From Gordonibacter sp. An230 (GTDB lineage: Bacteria; Actinomycetota; Coriobacteriia; Coriobacteriales; Eggerthellaceae), in NCBI RefSeq assembly GCF_002159915.1, contig NZ_NFJP01000008.1, positions 62,001-126,000 on the forward strand: a stretch of 64,000 bases of DNA. Reading direction: 5' to 3'. A model generated the notes under the pieces. That model worked only from the letters and a program-made list of their open reading frames with translations, was not told the origin of the DNA and ran no database searches. The position numbers were made by a program, and so were the translations under genes. Positions 8,438-52,476 of this stretch are shown one piece after another (positions within the stretch are counted from its first letter, which is position 1; each line of letters begins with the position of its first letter).

Positions 8438-8447
8438 GAGGTTTGGA

Positions 8448-36087: not shown

Positions 36088-36190
36088 TCGAGAGCGTCCA
36101 TCCTTCGCCGGACGCGCGGGCGGGCCGCAGCGGCCTCCGCTCGCACGAGGCGGGGCGCGTTTCTGCAACCAAGCGGTTAAGGAGAAAAAG

Positions 36191-38929
36191 GTGACCGAAG
36201 AAGTCAAGCGAGTCTATGCGTTCGGCAAGGACGCCGAGGGCAACAACGTGACCGAAGGCAACACGAGCATGAAGGCGATCCTCGGCGGCAAGGGCGCCAA
36301 CCTCGCCGAGATGGCCAATATCGGGCTGCCCGTGCCGCCCGGCTTCACCATCACGTGCCAGACCTGCATGGAGTACGCCAATGCGGGCAACACCTGGCCC
36401 GAGGGCGCGCTCGACACCATCCAGGCCTACCGCGAGGATCTCGAAGCTCGCATGGGCAAGAAGATCGGCGATGCCGAGGATCCCCTGCTCGTGTCCGTGC
36501 GCTCCGGCGCGCCGATGTCCATGCCCGGCATGATGGACACGGTGCTGAACCTGGGTCTGAACGACCAGTCCATCAACGGCCTGATCAAGCAGACCGGAAA
36601 CCCCCGGTTCGCCTGGGACTCCTATCGTCGTTTCATCCAGATGTTCTCGAACGTGGTGATGGGCCTCGACGGCGACCTGTTCGAGAACGCCATCACCGCT
36701 ATGAAGAACATGCGTGGCGCGGCTTCCGACACCGACCTCACCGCCGAGGACCTCACACAGCTCGTGTCCGAGTTCAAGAAGATCTTCTCCGAGAACGTCT
36801 CGGCCGACGAGCATCCTGCGCTCGTGGTCGACGGCGTCGTCCAGTTCCCTCAGGACCCGATGGCGCAGCTGAAGCTTGCCATCGAGGCCGTGTTCGGCAG
36901 CTGGAACAACCCGCGCGCCACGCTGTACCGCAAGCAGAACAAGATCGCCGACGATTTGGGCACCGCCGTCAACGTGCAGTCCATGGTGTTCGGCAACAAG
37001 GGCGACACCTCGGCCACGGGCGTGGCGTTCACGCGCAACCCCGCCAACGGCGAGAAGGAGTTCTACGGCGACTACCTGGTGAACGCCCAAGGCGAGGACG
37101 TCGTGGCCGGTATCCGCAACACCTCGCCGATCGCCGATCTGAAAAACGTCGCCGGTCTCGAGGAGGCCGGACGCGAGCTCGAGGAGGTGTTCGTCACCCT
37201 CGAGAACCACTTCCGCGACATGTGCGACATCGAGTTCACCATCGAACAGGGCAAGCTGTGGATGCTGCAGACCCGCGTGGGCAAGCGCACCGCGGCCGCC
37301 GCGCTGCACATCGCCATCGAGATGGAGAAGGAGGGCCTCATCTCCAAGGAGGAGGCCGTCATGCGCGTGGATCCCGAGCAGCTCGACCAGCTGTTGCACC
37401 CGCAGTTTGACAAGAACGCGAGCTACGACGTCATCGCCAAGGGCCTCAACGCCTCCCCGGGCGCCGCGGTGGGCGAGGCCGTGTTCTCGGCTGCCGATGC
37501 GGTGGCCTGCGCCGAGGCCGGTCGCAAGTGCGTGCTCGTGCGCTGGGAGACGAACCCCGACGACCTGGCCGGCATGATCGCCGCCGAGGGCATCCTCACC
37601 TCGCACGGCGGCAAGACGAGCCATGCGGCCGTCATCGCCCGCGGCATGGGCGCGCCGTGCGTCTGCGGCGTCGAGGCGCTCAAGATCGACGCGGAGCGCA
37701 AGCAGGCCGCCGTCACGGGCACCGACATCGTTATCCGCGAAGGGGATATGATCTCCATCGACGGCACCACCGGCACGGTCGTCCTGGGCGCGGTGGAGCT
37801 CGTGCTGCCGGAGATGACGGGCGATTTGGACACCATCCTCGAATGGGCCGACGAGTTCCGCGCGCTCGGCGTGCGGGCCAACGCCGACAATCCCGAGGAC
37901 GCAGAGCTCTCGAGAAACTTCGGCGCCGAGGGAATCGGGCTCTGCCGTACCGAGCACATGTTCCTAGGTGATCGCAAGCAGATCATCCAGACGTTCATTC
38001 TGAACGAGGACGAGGTCGTGCGCGAGCGCGCTGTGGGCGAGCTGCTCGAGGCGCAGACAGGCGACTTCCTCGGCATGTTCCGCGCCATGGACGGGCTGCC
38101 GGTGATCGTGCGCCTGCTCGACCCGCCGCTGCACGAGTTCTTGGAGAGTCCGCGGGCGCTTGACGTGGAGATCGCGCGCTTGGAGGCCACGGGCGGCGAC
38201 AAGGAAGAGATCGCCCGCAAACGCCTGCTCATGGAGCAGATCGACGGCATGAGCGAGGCGAACCCCATGCTGGGCTTGCGCGGCTGCCGCCTCGGCATCG
38301 TCTACCCCATTCTGCCGACGATGCAGGTGCGCGCCATCGCGACCGCCTGCGCCCAGCTCAAGAAGGAGGGCCTCGACCCCAAGCCCGAGATCATGATCCC
38401 GCTCGTGTCCGTGACGGCCGAGCTCGAGAAGCTGCGCCGTGTGGCCGAGGATGTCATCGCCCAGGTGGCCTCCGAGGAGGGAGTGGAGCTCGACATCCCG
38501 GTGGGCACGATGATCGAGCTGCCACGCGCCGCTGTGACGGCCGACGAGATCGCCACGCAGGCCGACTTCTTCAGCTTCGGCACGAACGATCTCACGCAGA
38601 CGACGTTCGGCTTCAGCCGTGACGACGTGGAGGCCGAGTTCGTTCCACAGTACTTGGCGGAGCGACTGCTGCCGTACAACCCCTTCGCCACCATCGACCC
38701 GGGCGTGGCGAAGCTCGTGAAGATGGGCGTCGAGCTGGGGCACGAGGGCAATCCCGATCTCGTGTGCGGCGTGTGCGGCGAGCACGGCGGCGATCCCGAT
38801 TCGGTGAAGACGTTCCACAAGATCGGGCTCGACTATGTCAGCTGCTCTCCGTATCGCGTGCCGCTCGCGCGCTTGGCCGCTGGCCAGGCGGCGCTCGCCG
38901 AGAAGATGGGCGACGGGCGCGACAAGTAA
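36191..38929 (+). CDS. ppdK: Pyruvate, phosphate dikinase
   Basis: A 912-residue PPDK that interconverts pyruvate, ATP and phosphate with PEP, AMP and pyrophosphate, used in glycolysis or gluconeogenesis of many anaerobes. The N-terminal ATP-grasp domain contains GGKGANLAEM near 30-40. The phosphohistidine is H478 in GGKTSHAAVIARG, next to the threonine targeted by the regulator. The C-terminal PEP/pyruvate barrel ends with CGVCGEHGG, where C862 is the likely proton donor. It starts at GTG 36191 with AAGGAG 6 bases before. A strong terminator follows. Confidence 0.97.
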   Translation: MTEEVKRVYAFGKDAEGNNVTEGNTSMKAILGGKGANLAEMANIGLPVPPGFTITCQTCMEYANAGNTWPEGALDTIQAYREDLEARMGKKIGDAEDPLLVSVRSGAPMSMPGMMDTVLNLGLNDQSINGLIKQTGNPRFAWDSYRRFIQMFSNVVMGLDGDLFENAITAMKNMRGAASDTDLTAEDLTQLVSEFKKIFSENVSADEHPALVVDGVVQFPQDPMAQLKLAIEAVFGSWNNPRATLYRKQNKIADDLGTAVNVQSMVFGNKGDTSATGVAFTRNPANGEKEFYGDYLVNAQGEDVVAGIRNTSPIADLKNVAGLEEAGRELEEVFVTLENHFRDMCDIEFTIEQGKLWMLQTRVGKRTAAAALHIAIEMEKEGLISKEEAVMRVDPEQLDQLLHPQFDKNASYDVIAKGLNASPGAAVGEAVFSAADAVACAEAGRKCVLVRWETNPDDLAGMIAAEGILTSHGGKTSHAAVIARGMGAPCVCGVEALKIDAERKQAAVTGTDIVIREGDMISIDGTTGTVVLGAVELVLPEMTGDLDTILEWADEFRALGVRANADNPEDAELSRNFGAEGIGLCRTEHMFLGDRKQIIQTFILNEDEVVRERAVGELLEAQTGDFLGMFRAMDGLPVIVRLLDPPLHEFLESPRALDVEIARLEATGGDKEEIARKRLLMEQIDGMSEANPMLGLRGCRLGIVYPILPTMQVRAIATACAQLKKEGLDPKPEIMIPLVSVTAELEKLRRVAEDVIAQVASEEGVELDIPVGTMIELPRAAVTADEIATQADFFSFGTNDLTQTTFGFSRDDVEAEFVPQYLAERLLPYNPFATIDPGVAKLVKMGVELGHEGNPDLVCGVCGEHGGDPDSVKTFHKIGLDYVSCSPYRVPLARLAAGQAALAEKMGDGRDK

Positions 38930-39229: not shown

Positions 39230-39271
39230 ACCCGTTCGGGTGATGCGCGCCGATATCGAAGCCCCTATGCT
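39230..39271 (+). promoter_or_regulatory. mocA operon promoter with ACCC-N4-GGGT motif
   Basis: The palindromic ACCCGTTCGGGT is at 39230-39241, followed by GATG, and a weak -10 TATGCT at 39266-39271. The -35 position has no consensus sequence, which suits an activator-dependent promoter. The same motif and spacing recur before the molybdenum hydroxylase operon at 44196. Confidence 0.55.
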
Positions 39272-39294
39272 TGCAGCGAGGAAAGGAGGGGCCG

Positions 39295-39909
39295 ATGCAG
39301 GTGTTTCCGCGCGCGTGCGTCTGCGTGCTCGCGGCGGGGGAGTCGAAGCGCATGGGTTCGTGCAAGCTGCTCGCGCCGTTCGCAGGCTCGACGCTGCTCG
39401 AGCGGGCGCTCAAAGCGGCTGTCGGATGCGCAGCCGAGGAGGCCGTGGCGGTGACGGGCGCGTACCGGGACGATATGGCGGACGCGATTGCGCGCGCCGA
39501 CGTTCGCGAGGCCTACAACCCATCGTGGAGAAGCGGGCAGTCGACCTCGGTGCGCACGGCGGCGCGCTTCACCGCGGCGCACGGCTACGACCTGCTGCTG
39601 GTCATGGTGGCCGACCAGCCCTACGTGGAGGCGGAGCACCTCGACGCGCTGCTGCGCGCGTACGCGGCGGGCGGCGTGCATGCGTGCGTCACGCAGGATG
39701 CGCTTCGCCGCGGCAACCCCTGCCTGTTTGATCGGGCGTGCTTCCCCCTGATCGAGGAGCTGGACGGCGACGAGGGGGCGCGCTCGATGCTGCGTGCGCA
39801 TCCGGAGATTGCCGTGCGCGCCGTGCCGGCGGACGCGCGCGTGCTCGACGACGTGGACACGCCCGACGAGCTCGCCCGCATCGAGGAGGCGATCCTCGAT
39901 GGACGCTAG
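39295..39909 (+). CDS. MobA/MocA-like molybdenum cofactor nucleotidyltransferase
   Basis: A 204-residue nucleotidyltransferase of the MobA/MocA type. The N-terminal motif LAAGESKRMGSCKLL (12-26) binds the nucleotide, and MVADQPYV near 102-109 provides the metal-binding aspartate. MocA makes the cytosine dinucleotide form of the molybdenum cofactor used by xanthine-dehydrogenase-family enzymes. The nearby molybdenum hydroxylase genes and XdhC make this the best reading. The ATG follows AAAGGAGG. It overlaps the next gene by 11 bp and heads a three-gene operon. Confidence 0.85.
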   Translation: MQVFPRACVCVLAAGESKRMGSCKLLAPFAGSTLLERALKAAVGCAAEEAVAVTGAYRDDMADAIARADVREAYNPSWRSGQSTSVRTAARFTAAHGYDLLLVMVADQPYVEAEHLDALLRAYAAGGVHACVTQDALRRGNPCLFDRACFPLIEELDGDEGARSMLRAHPEIAVRAVPADARVLDDVDTPDELARIEEAILDGR

Positions 39910-41149
39910 GCCCGCGGCGGACGCGACGCCGCTCGACCGCGCGCAGTTCCCCGTGCTCGAGCGCCGCATCGGGCGCGGCGGCGACCGCCCGCTCGTCTAC
40001 CTTGACAGCGCGGCCACCTCCCTCGTGCCGCTGCGCGTGACCGAAGCCGTGACGCGCTTCCTCCATACGAGTTGCGCCAACATCCATCGCGGCGCGCACA
40101 TGCTGGCAGAGGAGGCCACCGACGCCTACGAGTGCGCCCGGGAGCACCTCGCGGCCCATCTGGGCGTGGACGATCCGGCGCGCGTCGTGTTCACGCACGG
40201 CGCCACCGAGTCGCTCAACCTGGCGGCGCTCGGCTGGGCGGAGCATGCGCTCGGCCCGGGCGACGTCGTGGCCGTGGCCGAGGACAACCATCACGCCAAC
40301 ATCGTGTGCTGGCAGATGCTGGCCGAGCGGCGCGGCGTCGAGATCGCCTGGATACCCGTCGATGCGGACGGACAGCTCGACTACGGTGAGTGGTGCCGCA
40401 TCGCCGAGCGCGGCCCCAAGCTGGCAGCGCTGGCGCAGCAGTCGAACGTCGTCGGCTGGGAGCAGCCCGACCTGGCCCGCATCTTGGACGACGCGCGCCT
40501 GGCGGGGGCCTTCACGGCGCTCGACGGCGCCCAGGCGGCTGTCCACGGGCCGGTGGACCTGGCCGCGCTGCCCGTCGATTTTTACGCGCTGTCGGCGCAC
40601 AAGATGATGGGGCTCACCGGCATCGGCGCGCTCGCATGCTCGCCCCGGGCGTTCGAGCGCATGCGGCCCGTTTTCGGAGGGGGCGGGATGGTGGCGCAGG
40701 TGGACGCGTGCGGCTACGTGCCCGCTTGCGGCCCGCAGGGCTTCGAGGCGGGCACGCCCGCCATCGCCGCGGCGGTTGCCTGGAACGAGGCGCTGCGCAT
40801 GCTGGAGGAGGCGGGCATGGAAAGGGTGCGTCGCCACGTGGCCGCATTGGCTTTACGCGCGCAACGCGGGCTGAGCGAGCTACCGGGCGTGCGCGTGCTG
40901 GGCGGGCCGACTCCCGCCAGCGCCTCGCTCGTGAGCTTCACGGTGGACGACGTGCACCCCCATGACGCGAGCGCAGCCCTCGATGCGGAGGGCGTGCTCG
41001 TGCGCGCCGGGCACCACTGCGCCAAGCCGCTCCATGCGGCCCTCGGCGCGCGGGCCAGCGTGCGCGCCAGCTTCGCGGGCTACTCGAACGATGAGGACGT
41101 GGACGCGCTGCTGAGCGCCGTGGCGCGTCTCGTCGAGCGGAGGGCGTGA
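39899..41149 (+). CDS. SufS-type cysteine desulfurase-like protein
   Basis: A 416-residue class V PLP-dependent enzyme. The PLP lysine is K235 (LSAHKMMG) and the catalytic cysteine is C374 (RAGHHCAKPLH), so desulfurase activity should be retained. Other family landmarks are VYLDSAATS near 33-41 and HGATESLNL near 101. SufS enzymes pass sulfur to SufU or to sulfur-requiring cofactors. Lying between a MocA-like gene and a SufU-like gene, it may supply the terminal sulfido ligand of the molybdenum cofactor or Fe-S clusters of the oxidoreductase encoded 4 kb away. No wider suf operon is present here. Confidence 0.88.
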   Translation: MDARPAADATPLDRAQFPVLERRIGRGGDRPLVYLDSAATSLVPLRVTEAVTRFLHTSCANIHRGAHMLAEEATDAYECAREHLAAHLGVDDPARVVFTHGATESLNLAALGWAEHALGPGDVVAVAEDNHHANIVCWQMLAERRGVEIAWIPVDADGQLDYGEWCRIAERGPKLAALAQQSNVVGWEQPDLARILDDARLAGAFTALDGAQAAVHGPVDLAALPVDFYALSAHKMMGLTGIGALACSPRAFERMRPVFGGGGMVAQVDACGYVPACGPQGFEAGTPAIAAAVAWNEALRMLEEAGMERVRRHVAALALRAQRGLSELPGVRVLGGPTPASASLVSFTVDDVHPHDASAALDAEGVLVRAGHHCAKPLHAALGARASVRASFAGYSNDEDVDALLSAVARLVERRA

Positions 41150-41535
41150 GGGCCGTGCGCATCGACGACGGGAGGATAGTGGAACGCGCCGCGCATCCGA
41201 CGCGCAAGGGCTTCTCGGGAGCCTACGACGCGAAGGGGGAGGGCGACAACCCGTTCTGCGGCGACGCCCTCGAAGTGCGCGTGGCCCTCGAGCGCCGCGA
41301 CGGCGGCATGGCGGTCGCCCGCGCGGCGTTCGACGGCTACGCCTGCACGCTGTGCACGGCGTGCGCCGATGCGCTCATGGAGCGCGTGGAGGGGATGCGC
41401 GTCAGCGAAGCCGAGGCACTTGCCTTCGAAGACGTGCTGGGGCTGTGGGAGGGGCTCGAGGTCGGACGCACCCGGCGGGGATGCGTCGAGCTGCCCCTCA
41501 TCGTGCTGAAGCGGGCGCTCGCTTTGCTACAATAG
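41146..41535 (+). CDS. SufU-like sulfur acceptor/scaffold protein
   Basis: A 129-residue IscU/SufU-fold protein. C38 and D40 in NPFCGD, cysteines 67, 70 and 73 in YACTLCTAC, and C113 in RRGCVELP correspond to the zinc/sulfur acceptor residues of SufU. The two additional cysteines (70 and 73) are unusual. The start is the GTG overlapping the sufS-like stop by four bases; GTG 41155 is an alternative. With the gene before it, it forms a desulfurase-acceptor pair. It ends inside the promoter of the LuxR-type gene. Confidence 0.82.
   Translation: MRAVRIDDGRIVERAAHPTRKGFSGAYDAKGEGDNPFCGDALEVRVALERRDGGMAVARAAFDGYACTLCTACADALMERVEGMRVSEAEALAFEDVLGLWEGLEVGRTRRGCVELPLIVLKRALALLQ
41525..41533 (+). promoter_or_regulatory. 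Extended -10 promoter for the LuxR-type gene
   Basis: TG-C-TACAAT at 41525-41533 overlaps the end of the sufU-like gene, 43 bases before the GTG start. A weak CTGAAG lies 16 bases upstream. Confidence 0.6.
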
Positions 41536-41575
41536 GGGCGCAAGCGTCAGGGCGCGAGACGACGGGGGAATCAGC

Positions 41576-44173
41576 GTGCGCGAGGGGAAAGCTGAAAGAG
41601 GCAAAGGCGGGGTCGTCCTGCCTTCGAAGGTGGGCGTTCCGACGGTGCCGTCGACCATCGTCGATCGGCCCGCGTTGCGCGAGAAGCTGTCGCAGACCCT
41701 GACGCGGCCGGTGACGTCGGTGGTGTCGGCGGCGGGCTACGGGAAGACCACCGCGATCGCCTCATGGGTCGTCTCGCTTTCCGATCTGCCGGCTGCTTGG
41801 TATCGCATCGAGGCCGAGGATGCGCCGCTCGAGCGCTTCTGGCTGCATCTCACGACTGCCCTGCGTGCGGCAGACGAGCGCATCTGCCTGGCCCTCGACG
41901 ACGTGAGGCTGGAAGACGGCTTCGCCGACATGCGGCCTATCGTCGACTCCCTCCTGCTCCAGATGGAAGAGTTCGCGGATGCGTTCGTCTGCGTTTTGGA
42001 CGACTTCCATGAAGTCCAGGAGGACGATGAGGTGCGCGAGAGCGTGCGCTACCTGCTTCGCCACCTGCCTGGCAACGCCCACTTCGTCATCGCTTCCCGA
42101 CGACCCCTCCTGTTCCCGACGGCCAAGATGAAAGTGGTTGGCGAGCTGGGGGAGTTGACCGAGGCCGACCTGCGGTTCTCGTTCGAGGAAACGCGGGCCC
42201 TGTTCGCGCAAAAAGGCGTTCATCCGACGAACGACGAAGTGGAGACGATCCGCAAGACGACGCAAGGGTGGGCGACCGGCGACAAGCTCGTAGCCCTTTT
42301 GTGCGGCGGTGGATCGCAGGCGGGTCTGGACCAGGCGCTCGAGCAAGCCCAGCGCGGCATGAGCGAGTACCTGTTCGAGGAGGTGTTCTCGGTGCTCGAC
42401 GAGGACACTCGGCGCTTCCTGGTGCGCACGTCGGCGGTGGAGTCGTTCTGCTTGCCGCTGGCTGAGCGCATCACGGGCCTCCCGCGCGCCGAGGTTGCCG
42501 AGCATACGGCCTATCTCGTTGCGAACGATCTGTTTATCGAGCGGTTCGAGCGTCAGCAGGGCGAAGATTGGTTCCGCTACCATCGCCTCCTGAACGACAT
42601 GCTGCATGATCGCTTGCGCGCGCTGGAGCCTGAGGAGCTCGCGCGCGTGAAGCGCGCGGCGGGCGATTGGTACGAGGAGAACGGTTTTCTCGACGCCGCG
42701 GTCGAGGTATCGGCCGAACTGGGCGACGTCGAGCGTGTGAGCCGGATCATCATGGAGAACTGGCTGGCATTGTACATGGACGACAGTCATCACGTGCTCG
42801 TGCGCTGGGCGGCGTGTCTTCCCGAGGGGGAGATCGAAAAGCGTCCTGGCTTGTGCGCGGTTCTCAGCATGCCGTATGCGCTCAGAGGGTGGTTCGAAAG
42901 AGCTGAGCAGCTTTTGAGCCGGGCTGTCGGGCTTCTGCGCGACGAAGAGGATCCCTTGTCCTCGCTCTGCCTCGTCCAGAAGGCCTACCTCGCTTCGTTC
43001 AAGGGCCGTCGCGACGAGATGCGGTCGTGCGCGGAAGAGGCTCTCGCCCACCTTCCGGAGCGGGAGTTCTATCTGAGGGGGATGATGCTTCAAATACGGG
43101 CATCGTCGTTCGATGCCGAGCCCCTTAAGGCGAAGGCCTCGTTCGAGCGGGCCGTTGAGCTCCAACGAGGCTGCAACAACGCCAACCTCTCGTGCTCGGC
43201 GTACTGCAATCTCTCCCGCGTATGCGCCAACCTGGGGTATCTGCAGGAAGCCGACTACTACGCCGATCTCGCGTTCGGGTTGTACGACGAGCGCGAGCGG
43301 CGCTACAAGCCCATGCTGGCCTACGCGTACTTGACGAAGATGATTGCGGCCTACGAGCGCGGTTCGTTCGAGGAGGCCCTCGAACTGCACGGCAAGTTCG
43401 CAGAGCTTTCTGCGGAAGGATTGGTCGAGAGCTGCGTTGCGGAGGCGGCTACCGTGAAGGCGAAAGCGCTTTTCCGGCTCGGGCGCCCTGAGGCCGATCA
43501 GGTGTTTTTCCGTGCTCTCGACCAAGACGAGCTCGGCGCGCTTTCGGGATTTCCGCCGCTCGATTTCGTTCGAGCGTATTGCACGGCTTTTCGGACCAAG
43601 GCGCTCGAACGCTGCGCGCTGCCGGCCGAGGATTCCCAGACGACGGTGTTTCATGCGATGCTCGATTTCCATCTCGCGCCCGAGCGGTACGAGGAGGCGT
43701 GCGCGGGCATCGATGCCATCGACGGTGCCGAGCGCCTTGCTCGCGTTCACGGCTTGGCGGTTGCGGCTGCGTTCTCGGACAAGACGGCCCGTCCCGCTCG
43801 CGCCCTCGTGTACCTTGAAGAGGCCGTTCGTTCGGCGCGTGAGTTCGGCCTCGGCGAGGCGCTTGCACAGAACGCAGCCTACCTGCGCCCGGCGGCCAAG
43901 CGTTTGGCGCCCGCGCTGCACGATCCGCGGCTGGCGGCCTATGTCGAGGCCCTTCTCCGCCCGAAGGAGCGAGCGGCGTCCTCGTCGCTCACCGAACGCG
44001 AGCTCGACGTCATGCGCTGCGTTGCATCGGGGGCGACGGTGGCCCAGACAGCCGAGCGCCTGTTCGTGTCGCGTGACACCGTCAAAAAGCATTTGGCGAA
44101 TGCGTACGCGAAGCTCGGCGTGCACTCGAAGATGCAGGCGGTTGCCGTGCTGCGCGACGAAGGGGTCATCTGA
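41576..44173 (+). CDS. Large MalT-like LuxR-family regulator
   Basis: An 865-residue STAND-type transcription activator. A P-loop NTPase domain begins with Walker A AAGYGKTT at 52-59, with Walker B VLDDFHE near 139. A long helical/TPR-like sensor region covers ~350-790. A LuxR-type helix-turn-helix (LTERELDVMRCVASG, then SRDTVKKHLANAYAKLGV) ends the protein at ~800-862. MalT-type proteins bind an inducer and ATP, then oligomerise on DNA. It lies exactly between the mocA operon and the molybdenum hydroxylase operon, whose promoters share a motif, so it is the prime candidate activator. The start is GTG 41576 after GGGGGAA. Confidence 0.93.
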   Translation: MREGKAERGKGGVVLPSKVGVPTVPSTIVDRPALREKLSQTLTRPVTSVVSAAGYGKTTAIASWVVSLSDLPAAWYRIEAEDAPLERFWLHLTTALRAADERICLALDDVRLEDGFADMRPIVDSLLLQMEEFADAFVCVLDDFHEVQEDDEVRESVRYLLRHLPGNAHFVIASRRPLLFPTAKMKVVGELGELTEADLRFSFEETRALFAQKGVHPTNDEVETIRKTTQGWATGDKLVALLCGGGSQAGLDQALEQAQRGMSEYLFEEVFSVLDEDTRRFLVRTSAVESFCLPLAERITGLPRAEVAEHTAYLVANDLFIERFERQQGEDWFRYHRLLNDMLHDRLRALEPEELARVKRAAGDWYEENGFLDAAVEVSAELGDVERVSRIIMENWLALYMDDSHHVLVRWAACLPEGEIEKRPGLCAVLSMPYALRGWFERAEQLLSRAVGLLRDEEDPLSSLCLVQKAYLASFKGRRDEMRSCAEEALAHLPEREFYLRGMMLQIRASSFDAEPLKAKASFERAVELQRGCNNANLSCSAYCNLSRVCANLGYLQEADYYADLAFGLYDERERRYKPMLAYAYLTKMIAAYERGSFEEALELHGKFAELSAEGLVESCVAEAATVKAKALFRLGRPEADQVFFRALDQDELGALSGFPPLDFVRAYCTAFRTKALERCALPAEDSQTTVFHAMLDFHLAPERYEEACAGIDAIDGAERLARVHGLAVAAAFSDKTARPARALVYLEEAVRSAREFGLGEALAQNAAYLRPAAKRLAPALHDPRLAAYVEALLRPKERAASSSLTERELDVMRCVASGATVAQTAERLFVSRDTVKKHLANAYAKLGVHSKMQAVAVLRDEGVI

Positions 44174-44195
44174 CCTTCGTTTCACCCTTCTTCTC

Positions 44196-44238
44196 ACCCA
44201 TGCGGGTAATGTTCTGCGTTCGAAGCGCCGGGTATCGT
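44196..44238 (+). promoter_or_regulatory. Mo-hydroxylase operon promoter with ACCC-N4-GGGT motif
   Basis: ACCCATGCGGGT is at 44196-44207, followed by AATG, and a weak -10 TATCGT at 44233-44238. The motif-to-minus-10 distance is 25 bases, against 24 at the mocA promoter. The -35 position again lacks consensus. Confidence 0.55.
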
Positions 44239-44278
44239 TTGAGGCGTGGAAAACCGGAAACGAGAAGAAGGGACCTGT

Positions 44279-44989
44279 ATGGCGCAAAAGGTTTCACGCC
44301 GCGACTTCTTCAAAGTCGGCGGCATGGCCGGCGTCGCCGCCAGCGCGGTCGGCCTGGGGATCGGTTCGATCCTCGGCGCTCCGGCCGAAGCGCGCGCCGA
44401 GACGATCACCGTCACCGATTTCGTGTACACCTGCCCGCTATGCGGCCGGCAGACCACGGATTACGATGCGCTCGTCAAGCACTTCGAGGAGGAGCATCCC
44501 GAAGCGGCGGTGCCGGAGTGCGCGACGCTCGCCATCAACGGCACGGAGTTCAAGGTGCAGGTGGAGCCTCACTGGACGCTGCGCGAGACGCTGCTGAAAG
44601 CGGTCGGGCTCACCGGCAATGCGAAGGAGATGTGCGATCGCGGCGGTTGCGGGTCGTGCACGGTGCTCATCGACGGCGTGCCGGCGCTCTCGTGCACGAC
44701 GCTGGCCGTGGAATGCCAGGGCAAGCAGATCGAGACGTCCGAGGGCATCGCTGCCGACGAGAGATGGCGCCCGCTCGTGGAAGCCTACGCGAAGCACGAC
44801 GCCGCGCAGTGCGGCTACTGCACCCCTGGCCAGTTCACCGTGGCCAAGTACATTATCGAGAAGTACGGCCAGCCCACCGAGGAGCAGATACGCGCGGAGC
44901 TTTCCGGCAACATCTGCCGGTGTGGAACCTACTCTCGCCACGTGCAGGCCATTCAGGAGGCCGCGGCCGCGATCGAGGGAGGCAACTGA
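44279..44989 (+). CDS. Tat-exported 2Fe-2S subunit of a molybdenum hydroxylase
   Basis: A 236-residue electron-transfer subunit. It starts with a Tat signal (SRRDFFKVGG, twin Arg at 7-8, hydrophobic segment to ~35, likely cleavage after ARA at 40). Mature residues include a C2H2-like motif C52-x2-C55-x12-H68-x4-H73, which is unusual in this family. The plant-type 2Fe-2S cluster uses C119, C124, C127 and C139; the second uses C178, C181, C213 and C215. The organisation matches XdhC-small/PaoA-type subunits. The ATG at 44279 follows AGAAGGGA. The stop overlaps the large-subunit start. Confidence 0.93.
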   Translation: MAQKVSRRDFFKVGGMAGVAASAVGLGIGSILGAPAEARAETITVTDFVYTCPLCGRQTTDYDALVKHFEEEHPEAAVPECATLAINGTEFKVQVEPHWTLRETLLKAVGLTGNAKEMCDRGGCGSCTVLIDGVPALSCTTLAVECQGKQIETSEGIAADERWRPLVEAYAKHDAAQCGYCTPGQFTVAKYIIEKYGQPTEEQIRAELSGNICRCGTYSRHVQAIQEAAAAIEGGN

Positions 44990-47286
44990 TGGGCGAGACC
45001 AGCACGTGGGTTCCCGAAGGAACCAACCAGGACCGCGAGGACTTCAAGGTAGTGGGAACCTGGGGCCATCCCGGCCGCCAGTCGTGGGACATGGTGTCGG
45101 GGGCGGCCAAGTACCCCACCGACCTGTGGATGGAGGGCACGCTCACCGCGATGGCATTGCGCTGCCCCTACGGGCATGCCAAGGTCAAGAGCCTCGACGT
45201 GTCGGAGGCCGAGAAGATCGAGGGCGTGAAGCTCGTGCTCACCTATGAGGACGAAGAGCTTGCCAGCATGCCCAAGTACCGTCCGTCCTACTACGAGTTC
45301 GGCGGCAGCCCTCTTCTGGGCGACGAGGCCGAGTTCGAAGGCGACGAGGTGGGCGCCGTCGTCGTGGCCCTCAACGAGGAGATCTGCAAGAAGGCCCTTT
45401 CCGCGATCAAGGTCGAGTGGGAGGTCCTGCCATTCGTTCTCGATGCGCGCGAGGCCGCCAAGCCCGGCGCGCCCATCCTGCGCCCCGAGATGAACCCCGA
45501 CTCCAACATGACCGGCAACACGTTCGGGGCCGCGGTGCAGTGGGAGCAGGGGTGCGTCGAGGACGGCTTCAAGGAGGCCGACCATATCGAGGTGATCAAC
45601 TACGGGCGTCCCATGTGGAGCCAGTTCAGGCCCATGCCGCCCGCGTACTTCTCCTACTGGGCGAACGATCCTTGGGGCAACCCCGATGGCGAGAAGATGT
45701 GCTATGTCACGAACCATGCGCACTTCCCCTCGAACGGCCCCATCGTGTCGGCCTTCATGGGCGCTGGATCGTACGCGGACAAGTACCGCGCGCTCTCGCC
45801 GTACATGGCCGCCCGGTACTGCGACTTCGTCGAGAAGCGCGGCGCGCAGTTCGCTCCGGTGCTGTCGAAGCGCTTGGGGGGCGTTCCGGTGCGCTACGTG
45901 CAGAGCCGCCGCGAGTCGTTCGACGCGGCCGTCCCGCAAACCTACCTCACTGTGCGCATCGGCTTCAAAGACGATGGCACGCTGGTGGCCGTGCAGTCGA
46001 AGAACGTGCACCAGACGGGCGCGCGCGGCGGTTACGGCGACAAGACGCACGGGCATCTGGTGCTGCCGCCGAACGCGCAGGGTTTCAAGCAGACGGTCAG
46101 CCCCAACATCTACTCCGAGATGGCCTACTACGTGACGAACGGCGCCTGCACCACCGCTGATCCCGGGCAGCCGAACTACGAGCCGGTCAACCTGGCCTTC
46201 GCGCGCATCGCCGACAGCTTGGGGATGGACGTCTCCGAGGTCATCATGAAGAACGTCAAAGTGACCGAGCCGTCGCTGTCCGCGTGCATGGCCGCTGCCA
46301 AGGAGGCGTTCGACTGGGAGGGCAAGTGGCACCTCGCAGGGGAGCGCACGCTCGAAGACGGCCGCCTGCACGGCGTGGCATGCCGTTACGGAGCGTCGCA
46401 GACCTGGGGCATGATATCGTACAACATCAACCTGCGCATGGGTGTCGACGGCAAGATCTACCTGCCTTACGCCGAGGCGCTCATCGGCACGTACTGGCCC
46501 GACGCCGTGCAGCTGGTGGTGGCTGAGGAGATGGGCATGAAGCCTGAGGACGTCATCGTCTACTATGCGCCCAACTACAACAACTGGCAGCAGGGCGACG
46601 CGGCTGATAGAGGCGCCACCTGCACGTGGGCTGCGAAGGAGGCGGCCGTGCTGCTGAAGGCCCAGATACTCGAGACGGGCTCCTCCCTTCTGGGCGCCTC
46701 CGTTGACGAGGTCGATCTGGTCGACTCCATGATCACCCTCAAATCCGACCCTTCCAAGCAAGTCTCGCTCGTCGGCATCGGGCAGCTCGCCGTCGGCTAT
46801 TGCGGCAAGCCGAAAGTTCCGTTCCAAAACGACGTCATCCGCACGATGAACGTGGACATGTGCGAGGTTGCGGTCGATCCCGAGACAGGGCTCGTCGAGA
46901 TCATCGACTACGTCGTGGCCCACGACTTCGGCAAGGTCATCCGCCCCTCATCGGCGCTCGGCCAGATCGAGAACGCCGTCACCATGAACTCGGGCCGCGC
47001 CTTGCGCGAGGAGCTGGTCTGGGATGCGGACACCGGCGTGCTGCTGAACGGGACCATGTACGACTACAAGGTGCCCACGTCGCTTGACCAGCCGAAGTTC
47101 GAACCGGTTGCTGTGGAAACCCGTTGCGGCGGCGGCGCGTACGGCTCGACCGGCGTGGCTCATGCGCATGCGAACCCTGGCCTGGTGGGTCTGGCCATCC
47201 AGAATGCGACAGGCGGCGACTTCATCGAGATGCTGCCGTACACGCCCGACAAAGTGCTGGCCGCCTTGGGCAAGATCGGCCGGTAG
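44989..47286 (+). CDS. Molybdopterin-binding subunit, xanthine dehydrogenase family
   Basis: A 765-residue large subunit of a molybdenum hydroxylase. The a/b hammerhead region lies near 35-140 and the two molybdopterin-binding domains fill the rest. It has no signal of its own and should be exported with the Tat-bearing small subunit. The C-terminal loop that normally carries the catalytic GVGE glutamate reads CGGGAYGSTG near 710-718. The glycine-rich MGAGSYADK near 253 replaces the usual GGFGGK. These changes suggest an altered active site. The substrate cannot be named. It overlaps the upstream gene (TGATG) and is followed by the FAD subunit. Confidence 0.9.
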   Translation: MGETSTWVPEGTNQDREDFKVVGTWGHPGRQSWDMVSGAAKYPTDLWMEGTLTAMALRCPYGHAKVKSLDVSEAEKIEGVKLVLTYEDEELASMPKYRPSYYEFGGSPLLGDEAEFEGDEVGAVVVALNEEICKKALSAIKVEWEVLPFVLDAREAAKPGAPILRPEMNPDSNMTGNTFGAAVQWEQGCVEDGFKEADHIEVINYGRPMWSQFRPMPPAYFSYWANDPWGNPDGEKMCYVTNHAHFPSNGPIVSAFMGAGSYADKYRALSPYMAARYCDFVEKRGAQFAPVLSKRLGGVPVRYVQSRRESFDAAVPQTYLTVRIGFKDDGTLVAVQSKNVHQTGARGGYGDKTHGHLVLPPNAQGFKQTVSPNIYSEMAYYVTNGACTTADPGQPNYEPVNLAFARIADSLGMDVSEVIMKNVKVTEPSLSACMAAAKEAFDWEGKWHLAGERTLEDGRLHGVACRYGASQTWGMISYNINLRMGVDGKIYLPYAEALIGTYWPDAVQLVVAEEMGMKPEDVIVYYAPNYNNWQQGDAADRGATCTWAAKEAAVLLKAQILETGSSLLGASVDEVDLVDSMITLKSDPSKQVSLVGIGQLAVGYCGKPKVPFQNDVIRTMNVDMCEVAVDPETGLVEIIDYVVAHDFGKVIRPSSALGQIENAVTMNSGRALREELVWDADTGVLLNGTMYDYKVPTSLDQPKFEPVAVETRCGGGAYGSTGVAHAHANPGLVGLAIQNATGGDFIEMLPYTPDKVLAALGKIGR

Positions 47287-47296
47287 GAGGACAACC

Positions 47297-48238
47297 ATGA
47301 GGCATTTCAAGCATATGCAGGCCTCCTCGGCCAACGAGGCGGCTTCGGTGATCGGAAAAGGCAATGCGCTGGTCATGGCTGGCGGCACGGATCTCTTGGG
47401 AACGTTGAAGGACGAGATCCTTCCAACGTATCCCGAGACGGTCGTCGACCTCAAAGCGATCCCCGGCATGGACGGCATCTCGGAAGACGGCGACGACGTG
47501 GTCATCGGGGCGCTTGCGAAGCTTGCCGACGTGGCCGAGAGCGAGACGGTGCGCGCCAACTGCTCGGCATTGGCCGAAGCGTGCGCCCGCGCAGCGTCGC
47601 CCACGATCCGGCACATGGGCACCATCGGGGGCAACGTGTGCCAGATGCACCGCTGCTGGTACTTCCGCGTCCCCGACGACCGGTTCCATTGCCGACGCAA
47701 GGGCGGTGACTATTGTCCCGCGCGCATCGGAGACAACCGTTACCACTCCATCTTCGGCGACCAGGACGGCTGCTTCGCGTCCAGCTCCCACGACACCGCG
47801 CCCGCGCTCGTGGCGCTCGGCGCCGTCGTCAAGACCACGAAACGCGAGGTGCCCGCAGAAGAGTTCTTCAAGGCCAACGGCGTTCGCTCGAACGTTCTGG
47901 AAGACGGCGAGGTCGTCACGGAGATCCGCGTGCCGAAAGCGCAGAAGAGCGCGTTTCAGAAGTTCGCCTTGCGCAAGTCCATCGACTTCCCCGTGGCGAA
48001 TTGCGCGGCGGCGCGCCTGGCCGACGGCTCGGTGCGCGTGGCCCTGGGCGGCGTGTATCCGGCTCCGGTGCGCTCCGCATCCGCCGAGGCTGAGGTCGTA
48101 GGCGGCATCGGCGAGTCTTCGGCCGCGAAGGCGGGCGATGCTGCGGTGGTCGATTGCAGGCCGCTGTCGAACAACGAGTACAAGGTCGAGATAGCCCGCA
48201 CGCTCGTGAAGCGCACCTTGCTCGAGCTTGCCGACTGA
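47297..48238 (+). CDS. FAD-binding subunit with an extra cysteine cluster
   Basis: A 313-residue FAD subunit of the same oxidoreductase. FAD-binding motifs are AGGTDLLG at 28-35 and TIGGNV at 109-114. A cysteine-rich insertion follows (C115, C120, C132, C140, C159). Its pattern resembles PaoB of E. coli and 4-hydroxybenzoyl-CoA reductase beta subunits, which hold an additional 4Fe-4S cluster. That supports electron exit to a low- or mid-potential partner other than NAD. The ATG at 47297 follows AGGAGG. No signal peptide is present, so co-export with the small subunit is inferred. Confidence 0.9.
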   Translation: MRHFKHMQASSANEAASVIGKGNALVMAGGTDLLGTLKDEILPTYPETVVDLKAIPGMDGISEDGDDVVIGALAKLADVAESETVRANCSALAEACARAASPTIRHMGTIGGNVCQMHRCWYFRVPDDRFHCRRKGGDYCPARIGDNRYHSIFGDQDGCFASSSHDTAPALVALGAVVKTTKREVPAEEFFKANGVRSNVLEDGEVVTEIRVPKAQKSAFQKFALRKSIDFPVANCAAARLADGSVRVALGGVYPAPVRSASAEAEVVGGIGESSAAKAGDAAVVDCRPLSNNEYKVEIARTLVKRTLLELAD

Positions 48239-48260
48239 CGCGGAAGGAGGGAGCGCGATC

Positions 48261-49352
48261 ATGGCTGTCCGGCATGCGTGCGCAACCGCCGCCGACGAAG
48301 CGGACGGATTCCGCGGTTCGTGGCGGGAGGCGTACGTCGAGCTCGCGCGCTTCGTGGGAGGGCGCGGGGATATCAGGATCGACGAGATGGGCCTGTCGGT
48401 GCCGGGCGCGTTGCGCGGCGAGTTCTACGGACTGGTCGAGCGCGTGCAGGAGCGTCTAGCGCGCGAGGTGCTGGGCGCGCGGCTCGAGTTGGCGCGCGAG
48501 ACGGCGAAGCGCGCTGCTGCCATGCGGGGGCGGCTGGTCGAGATGAGCGGGCTGAGGGCCTATCGCGTCGCTCCCACGCTGGAGAGGTTCTTGAAGGATG
48601 CGGAGGCGACGCTCGCGAAGCCCGCGTTCGCGCTCGTGCTCGACGCGCTCCAGCGGGGCGAGGAGCCCGACGGCCTTGAAGAGCGCGCCCGTCTCGAACT
48701 CGTGCCGTTCTGCGCTTCGATGCGGCGCAACGCCTACGAGGCGTGGGTCTATTTCGGCGTGGTGGCGGCGCTCGGGCCGAGAAGGTTCTGGGCGGCCGCC
48801 TCGGTCGATGCCGAGGACGTTCGCGCCATGGAAACCGACGAAGTGGGCGCGGGCTTCCAGGTCGCCTCTCCCGAGCGGCGCATACCAGAGGCCGCCTTCG
48901 AGACGGCGGACGGGCGCGTGTTCGCCCTCAAGATGGAGGCGGCGCGCGAGCTGGACTACTACGGCGTGAAGATCGAGCGGAGGCGCGACACGTCCGCCGG
49001 CGGGAACACCGAGGGCCTCGTCGCGCATCGGGTGCTGCTGCTGTACCGGCTCGGCTCGGTGGAAGAGCTGGGCGTGGTGGTCGATCGACAGAAGCGTTGG
49101 CAGGTGCCCAACGATCTGATGGTGGAGGTGCTCGAGCCGGCCGACCTGTCTCGCCCGGCGCATACGAGCTCGTTCGTGGCCCGGATCAATGCGGCGCGCT
49201 CGCAGCGGCCCGTTCAAGCAGTCACCTTCGACGAAGAAGGAGCTTTTCCCGATGGGATGCTCGACGATCCTACGGTGGCGCCCGTCGAGCGGCGCGTCGT
49301 CGGGTTCGACGAGAACCGGTTGAGCCGGATCGCCGCCTTGCTCGGCGAATGA
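48261..49352 (+). CDS. Unknown soluble protein inside the Mo-hydroxylase operon
   Basis: A 363-residue protein that I do not recognise. It has no signal peptide, membrane segment, cofactor motif or nucleotide-binding loop. Composition is Arg/Glu/Ala-rich with a helical N-terminal half (to ~190) and a mixed C-terminal half. The ATG at 48261 follows AAGGAGG, and the gene lies 22 bp after the FAD subunit and 25 bp before the cytochrome gene, firmly inside the operon. A dedicated assembly or Tat proofreading factor is a reasonable guess from position; a regulatory role is also possible. Confidence 0.75.
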   Translation: MAVRHACATAADEADGFRGSWREAYVELARFVGGRGDIRIDEMGLSVPGALRGEFYGLVERVQERLAREVLGARLELARETAKRAAAMRGRLVEMSGLRAYRVAPTLERFLKDAEATLAKPAFALVLDALQRGEEPDGLEERARLELVPFCASMRRNAYEAWVYFGVVAALGPRRFWAAASVDAEDVRAMETDEVGAGFQVASPERRIPEAAFETADGRVFALKMEAARELDYYGVKIERRRDTSAGGNTEGLVAHRVLLLYRLGSVEELGVVVDRQKRWQVPNDLMVEVLEPADLSRPAHTSSFVARINAARSQRPVQAVTFDEEGAFPDGMLDDPTVAPVERRVVGFDENRLSRIAALLGE

Positions 49353-49377
49353 CAACATCGAACGAATGGAGGAAGGA

Positions 49378-49878
49378 ATGGACAAAGCGAAGGGAAGGCG
49401 CGCGATGCGCGCGAGCGCGCTCGCTTCCGCGATCGTGCTCGTTCTCGCGCTGGCTTCGTGCGCTCCGAACGGGGCGTCGACCGTCGACGAGGGCGCCTCG
49501 GCCGGCAACGACACGGCGGTGAAGGGGGAGTACACGCCCTACGATCCTGCAAAGGAGGCCGAGCTCACGGCCGGCAAGGCCATCGAGGGCTCCGATGAGG
49601 AGAAGCTGCAGCAGGAGCGCATCGCGGGAGGCGCGGTGGACACGACCATCAAGTCGCAGAACCTCGAGCCTCTCGAAGGCATCGTCGATGGTTCGGAAGG
49701 GTCTTACGTTCCTCGTTACGGGATGGAGGATCAGGCTCCGGCCATGGGCCACGACGGTGATCGCACCGAGTGCCTCAGCTGCCATGAAGGGGAAGGGACC
49801 TCGGTTCGCATGCCGGCGAGCCACGAGGATGCGGGCCTCGGGAACGAAGAGTGCGCCTCTTGCCATGAGGCGGAATAG
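49378..49878 (+). CDS. Dihaem cytochrome c lipoprotein
   Basis: A 166-residue exported lipoprotein. Its N-terminus has a basic start, a hydrophobic core and a lipobox ending at C28 (LALASC). Two haem c attachment sites, C132-LS-C135-H136 and C159-AS-C162-H163, lie near the C-terminus. M146, H124 and H149 are possible distal ligands. The ~100 residues before the haems are acidic and low in structure, perhaps a spacer from the membrane. Its place behind the exported oxidoreductase suggests it carries electrons to or from that enzyme at the outer membrane face. The ATG at 49378 follows GGAGGAAGGA. Confidence 0.9.
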   Translation: MDKAKGRRAMRASALASAIVLVLALASCAPNGASTVDEGASAGNDTAVKGEYTPYDPAKEAELTAGKAIEGSDEEKLQQERIAGGAVDTTIKSQNLEPLEGIVDGSEGSYVPRYGMEDQAPAMGHDGDRTECLSCHEGEGTSVRMPASHEDAGLGNEECASCHEAE

Positions 49879-49956
49879 CAGCGCGCTTTGCCCGGCGGAA
49901 GGCGCCTCGACGGGCCTCGGGCCTCGGTGAATCGGGATTCTGGAGGAGGAACGAGC

Positions 49957-51144
49957 ATGCGAGAAGTGGCTGAAGACGTGTTGCGGTGGCTTTCGGAGGG
50001 CGAAGCCGTGGCGCTTGCGCAGGTGGTGAGGACGTGGGGATCGTCTCCGAGGCTGCCGGGCTCCGTCATGGCCGTGAGCGGCAGCGGGCGGATCGCGGGG
50101 TCGGTGTCGGGTGGATGCATCGAGGCCGCGGTCGCCCGGATCGCGGTCGAGAGCCTAGAGGCCGGCCGGGGGTCGCTCGAGGAGTTCCGCGCGTCCACGG
50201 CGTCCGCCCGTCAAGCGGGGCTTTCGTGCGGCGGGAGCGTCGAAGTGCTCGTGTCCCCGCTCGATCCGGGGCTGTTCCACGTCGAGGCGGAGCTTGCCCG
50301 GACGGAGTGCGAATACGTTCGGGCGAGCGTCCTGCGGGATTGCGGCGACGCGCCGACGGGGACGTCGTTTATCGTCGCCGCGGAGACGGATGCCGAAGAG
50401 GCGCTCGATCGTTGCGGCGACGGGGGGATCGGGCTCGCCCATGTTCCGGGCGAGGGGCTCTGCGTCCTTATGCGCTCGTGCGGGGAGGCGACGTCCGCGT
50501 TGGAGGAGGCGGCCGTCGCGGTGACCCGGAAGGCGGCGGAGCGGCCACGCTTCGAGGAGTCGGGCGTGGTCGAGCATGGTGGATCGCCGTGGTTCTTCGT
50601 TCGGCGGTCCCCCCAGCCGCAGCTCGTGTGCGTCGGCGGCGTGCACATAGCCATCCACCTGTGCCGCATGGCGAAGGCCCTCGGGTACCGCACCGTCGTC
50701 GTCGACCCGCGGCGCGTGTTCGCCACCGCCGAGCGCTTCCCGTTCGTGGACGAGCTTGTGCACGCTTGGCCTCAGGAGGCGTTCGGCCGCGTACGCCTCA
50801 CCGAGCGGACGGCGCTGTGCGCGCTCACCCACGATCCGAAGATCGACGTGCCCGCGCTTGCGAGCGGGCTCGAGTCGCAGGCGTTCTACCTCGGATCGCT
50901 CGGACGGCCTTCGACCCAGCTTTCGCGAGCGCGCCAGCTCGCCGCGCTCGGATACGGGGAGTCGGCCCTTGCGCGCGTGTTCGGCCCCATCGGGCTCGAT
51001 CTGAAGGGGCGCGAGCCTGCCGAGATCGCGCTCTCCATCATGGCCGAGATCACGGCGGTGCGCCACGGCGGCCAGATTCCGATGTCCACCATGGAGGAAA
51101 CGGCGCGCAGGGAGGCAGCCTGCTCCGAAGCGGCGCTAAAATAG
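49957..51144 (+). CDS. XdhC/CoxI-family molybdenum cofactor insertion factor
   Basis: A 395-residue XdhC-family protein. The N-terminal XdhC/CoxI domain has VRTWGSSPRLPGSVMAV and SVSGGCIEAAV near 25-65; a C-terminal Rossmann domain (from ~225) carries FYLGSLGR. XdhC/PaoD proteins bind mature molybdenum cofactor, promote its sulfuration with a cysteine desulfurase, and insert it into the apo-enzyme. Its presence after the oxidoreductase genes, plus a MocA-like and a SufS-like gene upstream, gives a full maturation set. The ATG at 49957 follows GGAGGAGG. Confidence 0.9.
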   Translation: MREVAEDVLRWLSEGEAVALAQVVRTWGSSPRLPGSVMAVSGSGRIAGSVSGGCIEAAVARIAVESLEAGRGSLEEFRASTASARQAGLSCGGSVEVLVSPLDPGLFHVEAELARTECEYVRASVLRDCGDAPTGTSFIVAAETDAEEALDRCGDGGIGLAHVPGEGLCVLMRSCGEATSALEEAAVAVTRKAAERPRFEESGVVEHGGSPWFFVRRSPQPQLVCVGGVHIAIHLCRMAKALGYRTVVVDPRRVFATAERFPFVDELVHAWPQEAFGRVRLTERTALCALTHDPKIDVPALASGLESQAFYLGSLGRPSTQLSRARQLAALGYGESALARVFGPIGLDLKGREPAEIALSIMAEITAVRHGGQIPMSTMEETARREAACSEAALK

Positions 51145-51356: not shown

Positions 51357-52406
51357 GTGACGTTTGCCCTCCACCTCGACAACCTGCCGCGCACCATCGA
51401 GCTCGTCCGGGCCGCCGATGGCGCGGCAGAGCTCGTCTATGTCGACCAGCGCCTGCTGCCGGGCAGGCTCGCGTTCTCGCGGACGCGCGATTGGCGCGCG
51501 GTCGTGGACGCCGTGAGGTCGCTTTCGGTGCGCGGCGCCCCCGCCATCGGCGCGGCGGGGGCTGCGGCAGTGGCGCTGTGGGCCCAGGCGCGCGCATCGT
51601 CGCGCGCAGACGGCTCCTACCTCGCTGAGCTCGAGCGCGTGTGCGCCCAAGTGGCCTCGGCGCGCCCCACGGCGGTGAACCTCTCCTGGGGCGTGAGGCG
51701 CATAGAGCGCGCGGCGCGGGAGCGCGTGCGCGCTGGAGGAGGGGCCGGGGAGGTGGCCGCGGACCTCTTCGACGCCGTAAAGGCCCTCGAGGCCGAAGAC
51801 GAGGCTGCGAACCGCTCCATCGGCGCGCACGGTGCGGCGCTGCTGCCGGAAGGCGCGCGCGTTCTCACGCACTGCAACGCCGGAAGCCTCGCCACCGTGT
51901 TCTTCGGCACGGCTCTCGGCGTCGTGTACGCCGCTGCCGCGCAGGGCAAGGTCGCTCGCGTGTACGCCGATGAGACGCGTCCGGTGGGCCAGGGTGCGCG
52001 TCTCACCGCCTGGGAGCTGGCGCGCGCGGGCGTTCCCGTCACGCTTATCTGCGACAACATGGCGGCGAGCCTCATGGCTGAAGGCGAGGTGGACGCCGTG
52101 GTGGTGGGAGCCGACCGCATCGCGGCCAACGGCGATGTGGCCAACAAGATCGGCACGTACGGTGTGGCCGTGCTCGCTCGCCATCATGGCATTCCGTTCT
52201 ACGTGGCCGCGCCCGAATCGACCATCGACCGTTCCGTTCCCGACGGCTCGCGCATCCCTATCGAGGAGCGGGATCCTGCCGAGGTGGCCGATCCCCTGCC
52301 CGGCGTGGAGGTGTGGAACCCCGCCTTCGACGTCACGCCGGCCGAACTCGTCACGCGCATCGTCACCGAGAAGGGGGCATTGCGCCCTTCGGAACTGCTA
52401 TACTGA
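51357..52406 (+). CDS. mtnA: S-methyl-5-thioribose-1-phosphate isomerase MtnA
   Basis: A 349-residue isomerase of methylthioadenosine recycling, converting methylthioribose-1-P to methylthioribulose-1-P. Motifs are VRGAPAIGAAGA, THCNAGSLAT and GADRIAANGDVANKIGTY, typical of MtnA/eIF2B-like enzymes. GTG 51357 with AAAGGGA upstream is preferred over an in-frame ATG at 51288, because that ATG overlaps a -10-like TACAAT at 51284-51289. No other salvage gene is nearby. In anaerobes MtnA homologues may also work in alternative thiol salvage routes. Confidence 0.92.
   Translation: MTFALHLDNLPRTIELVRAADGAAELVYVDQRLLPGRLAFSRTRDWRAVVDAVRSLSVRGAPAIGAAGAAAVALWAQARASSRADGSYLAELERVCAQVASARPTAVNLSWGVRRIERAARERVRAGGGAGEVAADLFDAVKALEAEDEAANRSIGAHGAALLPEGARVLTHCNAGSLATVFFGTALGVVYAAAAQGKVARVYADETRPVGQGARLTAWELARAGVPVTLICDNMAASLMAEGEVDAVVVGADRIAANGDVANKIGTYGVAVLARHHGIPFYVAAPESTIDRSVPDGSRIPIEERDPAEVADPLPGVEVWNPAFDVTPAELVTRIVTEKGALRPSELLY
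52396..52404 (+). promoter_or_regulatory. Extended -10 promoter for dgt
   Basis: TG-C-TATACT lies in the last codons of mtnA, 72 bases before the dgt start. Confidence 0.5.
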
Positions 52407-52476
52407 TTCCTGTCGTCGGTCGGGCGGTTCGCAAGCCGCTGGACGGCTTAGGGCCGAGGGTGACAGGAGGGACGCC

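Follow-up and report, generated by a model that had tools for sequence, protein, structure and literature searches.

A putative exported molybdenum enzyme with a replaced xanthine-oxidase-type active site in gut Eggerthellaceae and Bacillota

In the xanthine oxidase family, the glutamate adjacent to the molybdenum is regarded as essential for hydroxylation. This residue is reported to initiate catalysis in xanthine oxidase (PMC10420851). Reductive members of the family, the xanthine-oxidase-family dehydroxylases, are established in gut bacteria (PMC12771579). Dedicated sulfuration of the molybdenum cofactor (Moco) has a precedent in the desulfurase NifS4, which works with XdhC (PMC2997495).

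We analyzed a block of genes in a stretch of 64,000 nucleotides (the window) from Gordonibacter sp. An230. A first-pass annotation had described the block as a self-contained regulon for a PaoABC-like, exported, haem-linked molybdenum hydroxylase with a private sulfur-delivery pair. We find a new variant within an enzyme family that is already known, and its greatest novelty lies elsewhere than where the annotation put the emphasis: the active site of the core is unusual, and the haem link and the private sulfur pair are additions to that core.

All ten reported genes were confirmed, in the same order and all on the + strand (39295-51144; Table 1). The block had been given as 39230-51144; its gene set and order stand, but it truly starts at 39295. 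The starts listed for mocA, the Mo subunit, the lipoprotein, and xdhC are supported by Shine-Dalgarno sequences. The best NCBIfam match of the mocA product is MocA/YgfJ (1.3e-37, under the equivalog cut-off).

Table 1. Features of the block, with positions in the window.
Feature	Position	Strand	Evidence
MocA-like molybdenum cofactor cytidylyltransferase	39295..39909	+	NTP_transf_3 2.7e-36; ATG 39295, Shine-Dalgarno GGAGG
SufS-type cysteine desulfurase, 416 aa	39899..41149	+	Aminotran_5 1.8e-113; PDB SufS matches
NifU_N protein, SufU-like	41146..41535	+	NifU_N 1.2e-13; TIGR01994 46.1 bits
MalT-type STAND/TPR regulator, LuxR HTH	41576..44173	+	GerE 4.7e-17; MalT 273 bits (cut-off 537)
ACCC-N7-CACCC-N5-GGGTAAT-like box, candidate regulator site	44184..44210	+	strict pattern in 8/12 loci
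[2Fe-2S]x2 subunit (FeS), Tat signal SRRDFF	44279..44989	+	TAT_signal, zf-Di19, zf-C2H2, Fer2_2
Mo-binding catalytic subunit, 765 aa	44989..47286	+	MoCoBD_2, Ald_Xan_dh_C, MoCoBD_1; top PDB match 1rm6_A
FAD subunit	47297..48238	+	FAD_binding_5; PDB 5y6q_B, 1rm6_B, 5g5g_B
Core protein of no known family	48261..49352	+	no Pfam/NCBIfam match; without signal peptide
Exported lipoprotein, two CxxCH	49378..49878	+	alignment of 19 homologues
XdhC-family Moco insertion/sulfuration chaperone	49957..51144	+	XdhC_C 1.6e-34, XdhC_CoxI 2.9e-22; NF045664 174.6 bits (below cut-off)

The Mo subunit matches three domains of the xanthine oxidase fold family above their cut-offs (Ald_Xan_dh_C, 59.5 bits; MoCoBD_1, 39.8 bits; MoCoBD_2, 108.9 bits), but its active site is replaced. 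When it is aligned to HcrA of 4-hydroxybenzoyl-CoA reductase (1rm6), Gln214 corresponds to H245, the GGGFG loop corresponds to A274-A275-R276-Y277-C278, and Glu726 corresponds to H725. His245, the (A/S)RYC motif, and His725 are invariant in all 20 distinct members that we compared. As an outgroup, we used 34 proteins from Eggerthellaceae, a Lachnospiraceae group, Shinella, and Ensifer. All 34 keep the apical Gln, GGxFG, and the GE that holds the catalytic Glu; the glutamate that activates the molybdenum-oxygen ligand is thus found in 34/34 outgroup proteins versus 0/20 members. A stretch with TADPG stands in place of the GAxRGxG motif, so all four of the catalytic motifs that we inspected are altered. 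The Mo subunit belongs to the xanthine oxidase fold family, but judging from these alignments it does not appear to share the hydroxylase mechanism. An AlphaFold model built from 23 sequences was too poor to use (mean pLDDT of 55.9), so our spatial reading of the pocket rests on the alignment. Because further motifs of the Mo subunit have diverged as well, the cofactor could differ.

The electron-transfer branch, in contrast to the active site, is intact at the sequence level, with two [2Fe-2S] clusters, FAD, and a PaoB-type [4Fe-4S] site. The FeS subunit has a TAT_signal match with an invariant R7-R8, and all eight of the cysteines for its [2Fe-2S] clusters are invariant (20 sequences). Between the Tat signal and the ferredoxin domain lies a C2H2-type metal-binding motif (C52, C55, H68, and H73), which is also invariant in 20 sequences. 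The extra cysteines that had been noticed in the FAD subunit are four in number (C120, C132, C140, and C159); they align with the 4Fe-4S ligands of PaoB (5g5g_B) and are invariant in 21 sequences. The first-pass annotation listed Tat-bearing 2Fe-2S, Mo, and FAD subunits. Of these, only the FeS subunit carries the signal, and the Mo and FAD subunits would need to be exported together with it.

To describe the distribution of the enzyme, we searched 138 genomes of the family Eggerthellaceae with the Mo subunit as the query. It was found in 11 other genomes at 63-91% identity, and the next-best match was at 27%. Carriers include Rubneribacter badeniensis, Eggerthella sinensis, Paraeggerthella hongkongensis, and Adlercreutzia equolifaciens DFI.6.87, as well as one Gordonibacter metagenome-assembled genome (MAG) and one Eggerthellaceae MAG. 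The whole 12-kb block is conserved: nine other Eggerthellaceae genomes share the window's order (mocA-sufS-sufU-luxR followed by FeS-Mo-FAD-core protein-lipoprotein-xdhC), although in one of these the contig ends inside sufS. This implies that the arrangement is not due to chance. In another genome, mocA-sufS-sufU has relocated downstream of xdhC, and in the last one the contig covers little beyond luxR-to-lipoprotein at either end and is too short to judge the full order. Wherever the contig of an Eggerthellaceae copy is long enough to show it, mocA and xdhC accompany the Mo subunit.

The core (FeS-Mo-FAD-core protein-lipoprotein) is also found in gut Bacillota, with 76-82% identity for the Mo subunit, in MAGs labelled Hungatella, Lachnospiraceae, and Oscillospiraceae. 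Across 397 genomes from the family of one Bacillota carrier, 96 had a match to the xanthine oxidase family and two of these lie in this clade; the clade members have 77-82% Mo identity, and the next match is at 32%. In the phylogenetic tree, a branch of 2.1 changes per site separates the clade of these Mo subunits from the rest. The peptide YCDFVEK served as the query in one collection search, which biases that search toward the motif, but the whole-protein searches still gave no intermediates, and by that measure the clade is discrete. Contamination of single MAG records cannot be excluded; several independent Bacillota MAGs agree, with their own upstream box. A plasmid collection contained no match at 60% identity or above, and our literature search on this gene set found no paper for Rubneribacter with molybdopterin.

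By their co-occurrence, two further proteins are fixed partners of the enzyme: a lipoprotein that is exported and a protein of no known family that is cytoplasmic. An alignment of 19 homologues divides the lipoprotein into an exported domain that is conserved throughout, 'EE.LQQERIAGGAVG', and a tail at the C-terminus that is found only in Eggerthellaceae and holds two CxxCH motifs. The 11 tailed lipoproteins match cytochrome c7 or paired CXXCH families, while the Bacillota lipoproteins stop where the haem tail begins. The enzyme had been described as haem-linked, and in Eggerthellaceae a dihaem tail bears this out, but the haem part is not conserved: given the Bacillota lipoproteins, the haem link is a lineage-specific add-on.

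The core protein is present in all copies whose contig extends that far. Searches with 19 members found no Pfam family, and there was no NCBIfam match; the single match among PDB sequences was judged to be due to chance. The predicted structure is confident (pLDDT of 91.6). Foldseek gave nothing significant for this model (E above 0.1). Weak matches from VIA-align were enriched in restriction endonucleases, the best being SgrAI (Z of 7.2, rmsd of 7.2 over 194 residues). E160, P209, K224, and E226 are invariant, and in the model the order helix-E160, P209-E210, A222-x-K224 may resemble PD-(D/E)XK, which we offer only as a lead.

In all Eggerthellaceae copies, the MalT/LuxR gene lies directly upstream of the FeS gene. 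Under a strict pattern, 8 of the 12 Eggerthellaceae loci have a repeated ACCC box upstream of the FeS gene, against 0 occurrences in shuffled sequences; as the pattern was derived from the same sequences, the shuffle test is optimistic. The box was found upstream of mocA in 0 of 10 loci, so a self-contained regulon is not supported. LuxR regulators of E. lenta are described as a membrane-spanning type with 10-12 TM segments (PMC9734109). Profile matches for this regulator show no N-terminal domain of 10-12 TM segments; instead, its N-terminal part is a MalT-like STAND/TPR region. In Bacillota, a TAGAATTCTA-like palindrome lies upstream of the unit in 8/8 loci, and both loci that we examined for regulators have a MarR-type gene ahead of the unit. 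Among the weak family matches of these MarR-type genes is HpaR, a homoprotocatechuate regulator.

The private SufS and NifU_N proteins were expected to be a sulfur-delivery pair that belongs to the enzyme. SufS scores 402.7 bits against TIGR01979 (cut-off 475), and both the PLP-binding K235 and the active-site C374 are invariant (11 sequences). SufS of this type (at least 49% identity) is found in 11 of 12 carriers, the twelfth not being decidable, versus 0 of 126 non-carriers, in counts that ignore relatedness. These proteins form one clade with a support of 100/100. The NifU_N protein has an invariant C38-G-D40, C67-x2-C70, and C113, and at 46.1 bits it misses the equivalog cut-off of TIGR01994 (SufU; 92.5 bits). 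SufU proteins from SUF operons have GHGCAVS and a longer spacing between cysteines, whereas the NifU_N protein has CGD, CxxC, a third (extra) cysteine, and a shorter spacing; motif comparison did not find the SUF-type cysteine pattern in the block's protein. One Lachnospiraceae locus has the same SufS/NifU_N pair behind xdhC and mocA, but among seven Bacillota genomes that we queried with SufS, it was missing from the other six. Although its clade is confined to carriers, the pair is thus not indispensable to the enzyme, and from its distribution we consider it to be a dedicated but dispensable accessory. With the haem tail missing from the Bacillota lipoproteins and SufS/SufU usually missing there, both are add-ons to the core.

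How might these parts work together? We propose that the cofactor would be assembled in the cytoplasm, where MocA would make its cytosine dinucleotide form and the SufS/NifU-like proteins would pass sulfur from cysteine on to the XdhC-bound cofactor. The core protein may assist folding or assembly, and the assembled complex would then be co-exported via Tat. Outside the membrane, the dihaem lipoprotein would connect the enzyme to the menaquinone pool. There the enzyme may reduce a small extracellular compound, possibly a phenolic one, as do 4-hydroxybenzoyl-CoA reductase and the urolithin C dehydroxylase Ucdh, and the Cys/His pocket would stand in for the glutamate-dependent hydroxylation chemistry. 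As most of the Bacillota copies lack the haem and SufS/SufU, these routes for electrons and sulfur would not be universal.

We put about even weight on the enzyme being exported and reducing a compound that is small and perhaps phenolic, with both the substrate and the direction of electron flow deduced indirectly. In its favor we count the conservation of the block, the established xanthine-oxidase-family dehydroxylases of gut bacteria, the discrete clade, the replaced active site, the intact Fe-S and FAD ligands, 1rm6 as the best solved relative, the carrier-only SufS, and the weak matches of the Bacillota MarR-type genes that include HpaR. Likeness to 4-hydroxybenzoyl-CoA reductase does not itself predict reduction, as that enzyme keeps the glutamate. 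More tentatively, the lineage may represent a new catalytic class within the xanthine oxidase fold, with novel chemistry, in which C278, H245, and H725 hold and activate the molybdenum in place of the backbone amide, Gln, and Glu, and which has spread among Actinomycetota and Bacillota of animal guts along with a new partner and a lipoprotein. A PaoABC-like exported oxidase or dehydrogenase would instead oxidize an extracellular aldehyde or heteroaromatic compound and pass the electrons to the dihaem lipoprotein and the quinone pool; the role of Glu would fall to His725 or some other residue. The Tat signal on the FeS subunit, the PaoB-type 4Fe-4S ligands, and the XdhC and MocA neighbours are as in pao (PMC3958847; PMC2997495). 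Of these, the exported FeS subunit and the PaoB-type ligands are also the parts of the PaoABC comparison that stood. But the catalytic Glu, the apical Gln, and the GGxFG loop are replaced in every member, and PaoC is a much lower-scoring relative than HCR, CoxL, or quinoline oxidoreductase, so we think that an oxidase is unlikely. With four altered motifs, the Mo subunit might even have ceased to be a molybdenum catalyst and persist as a scaffold of the xanthine oxidase type that holds another metal or turns over no substrate. This seems very improbable: 63-91% identity over two phyla with a uniform set of new motifs implies strong selection, and mocA and xdhC remain constant companions in Eggerthellaceae. 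DMSO-reductase-type catechol dehydroxylases belong to the wrong Mo family and were dropped from consideration, as was a selenium-dependent hydroxylase, given that the block has neither selD nor an EF2568-type gene.

The SufS/SufU-like pair could also be the organism's general machinery for Fe-S assembly, linked to the enzyme by chance. Profile searches of the window genome (a draft, 96.7% complete) found no second SufS or NifU_N; the rest of the genome has a short SufC and SufB/D-like pair and other PLP enzymes, and the SufB/D-like protein scores 62.4 bits against NF052511 (SmsB), under the cut-off of 650. As the sole SufS/NifU_N set in this genome, the pair may have a general Fe-S role there. 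In a relative from the same genus, which lacks the enzyme, the sufCBDSU operon is complete. However, carriers from Eggerthella and Paraeggerthella have a separate SUF-type SufS-SufU pair besides the private one, so the lack of another suf set that the first-pass annotation had raised against its own proposal holds halfway for the window genome and does not hold for those two genera. The private clade occurs only beside the enzyme, even in the one Lachnospiraceae genome, and the cysteine pattern of the NifU_N protein differs from that of SUF-operon SufU. We therefore regard a general assembly machinery linked by chance as improbable, and we see the pair as a candidate for a dedicated route of sulfur delivery to the molybdenum cofactor. 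More broadly, an exported, cross-phylum gut lineage that replaced Glu and the surrounding motifs at once is a direct test of what else the fold can do, and it points to an unrecognised extracellular redox activity in gut microbes.

Each of the known systems shares part of this design. XdhC-NifS4 of Rhodobacter capsulatus differs in that no NifU-like partner is described there and NifS4 appears to be essential for other roles (PMC2997495). At selenium-dependent Mo hydroxylase loci, a PLP lyase of the desulfurase superfamily (EF2568-type) is associated with Mo hydroxylases (PMC2276186), but that lyase belongs to family TIGR01977 and is tied to selD; none is present in this block. (An EF2568-type gene does occur elsewhere in the window genome.) Ucdh from Enterocloster bolteae, likened here by description rather than by sequence, is another gut enzyme of the xanthine oxidase family and carries out reductive phenol dehydroxylation (PMC12771579), but it is cytoplasmic and was assayed with NADH. 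Among solved structures, HcrABC (1rm6) is the top match of the Mo subunit (4e-36) and the second of the FAD subunit; it also has three subunits and an extra [4Fe-4S] cluster, and its own chemistry is reductive, in an anaerobe. The equivalog cut-offs for HCR were missed (217.9 versus 994.55 bits for TIGR03194, 165.8 versus 404.55 for TIGR03195, and 133.6 versus 257.8 for TIGR03193). HcrABC differs in keeping Gln214, GGGFG, and Glu726, in using a CoA thioester inside the cell, and in having neither the lipoprotein nor the core protein. PaoABC and PaoD of E. coli share the Tat signal on the 2Fe-2S subunit, the four PaoB-aligned cysteines, MCD-type maturation, and an XdhC-family chaperone. Compared to PaoABC, this locus lacks the catalytic Glu and has an extra C2H2 motif, a fixed lipoprotein with a dihaem tail, a core protein of no known family, and a private SufS/NifU-like pair.

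In another phylum, Bacillota, the same enzyme apparently comes with a different regulator. Both of the two Bacillota loci examined carry a MarR-type gene with their copies, and a TAGAATTCTA-like palindrome lies 5' of the gene for the exported iron-sulfur (FeS) subunit in loci L086, L087, L088, L091, L093, L094, L096, and L099. At L086, two lipoprotein flavoproteins that resemble flavocytochrome c are encoded 3' of the unit; they are possible electron partners or possible chance neighbors.

The ppdK-like left flank and the mtnA/dgt-like right flank of the block are common to several genera; in other genera, the surroundings differ and these flanks are not shared. Within the block, the FeS subunit contains an invariant C2H2 zinc-finger-like motif. 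The enzyme's fixed partner protein, which matches no Pfam or NCBIfam family, has invariant residues E160, P209, K224, and E226, and its predicted fold weakly resembles restriction endonucleases.

Locations of the features discussed
Feature	Location	Coordinates
ppdK-like gene	window	about 36000-38929
FeS subunit (motif, residues 52-73)	window	44279-44989
Partner protein	window	48261-49352
mtnA/dgt-like genes	window	about 51386-53520
Flavoproteins	L086	16195-18093; 20036-22069
SufC, SufB/D-like pair	L073 (G000 C67)	6921-8719
EF2568-type lyase	G000 C17 (L074)	5243-6391
sufCBDSU	G088 C100 (L076)	

G088, a same-genus genome without the enzyme, has a full sufCBDSU operon, whereas the window genome (G000) has only a short SufC and SufB/D-like pair, on C67. 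G000 also encodes an EF2568-type cysteine desulfurase/selenocysteine lyase adjoining a SirA/YedF-like protein, an arrangement familiar from selenium metabolism.
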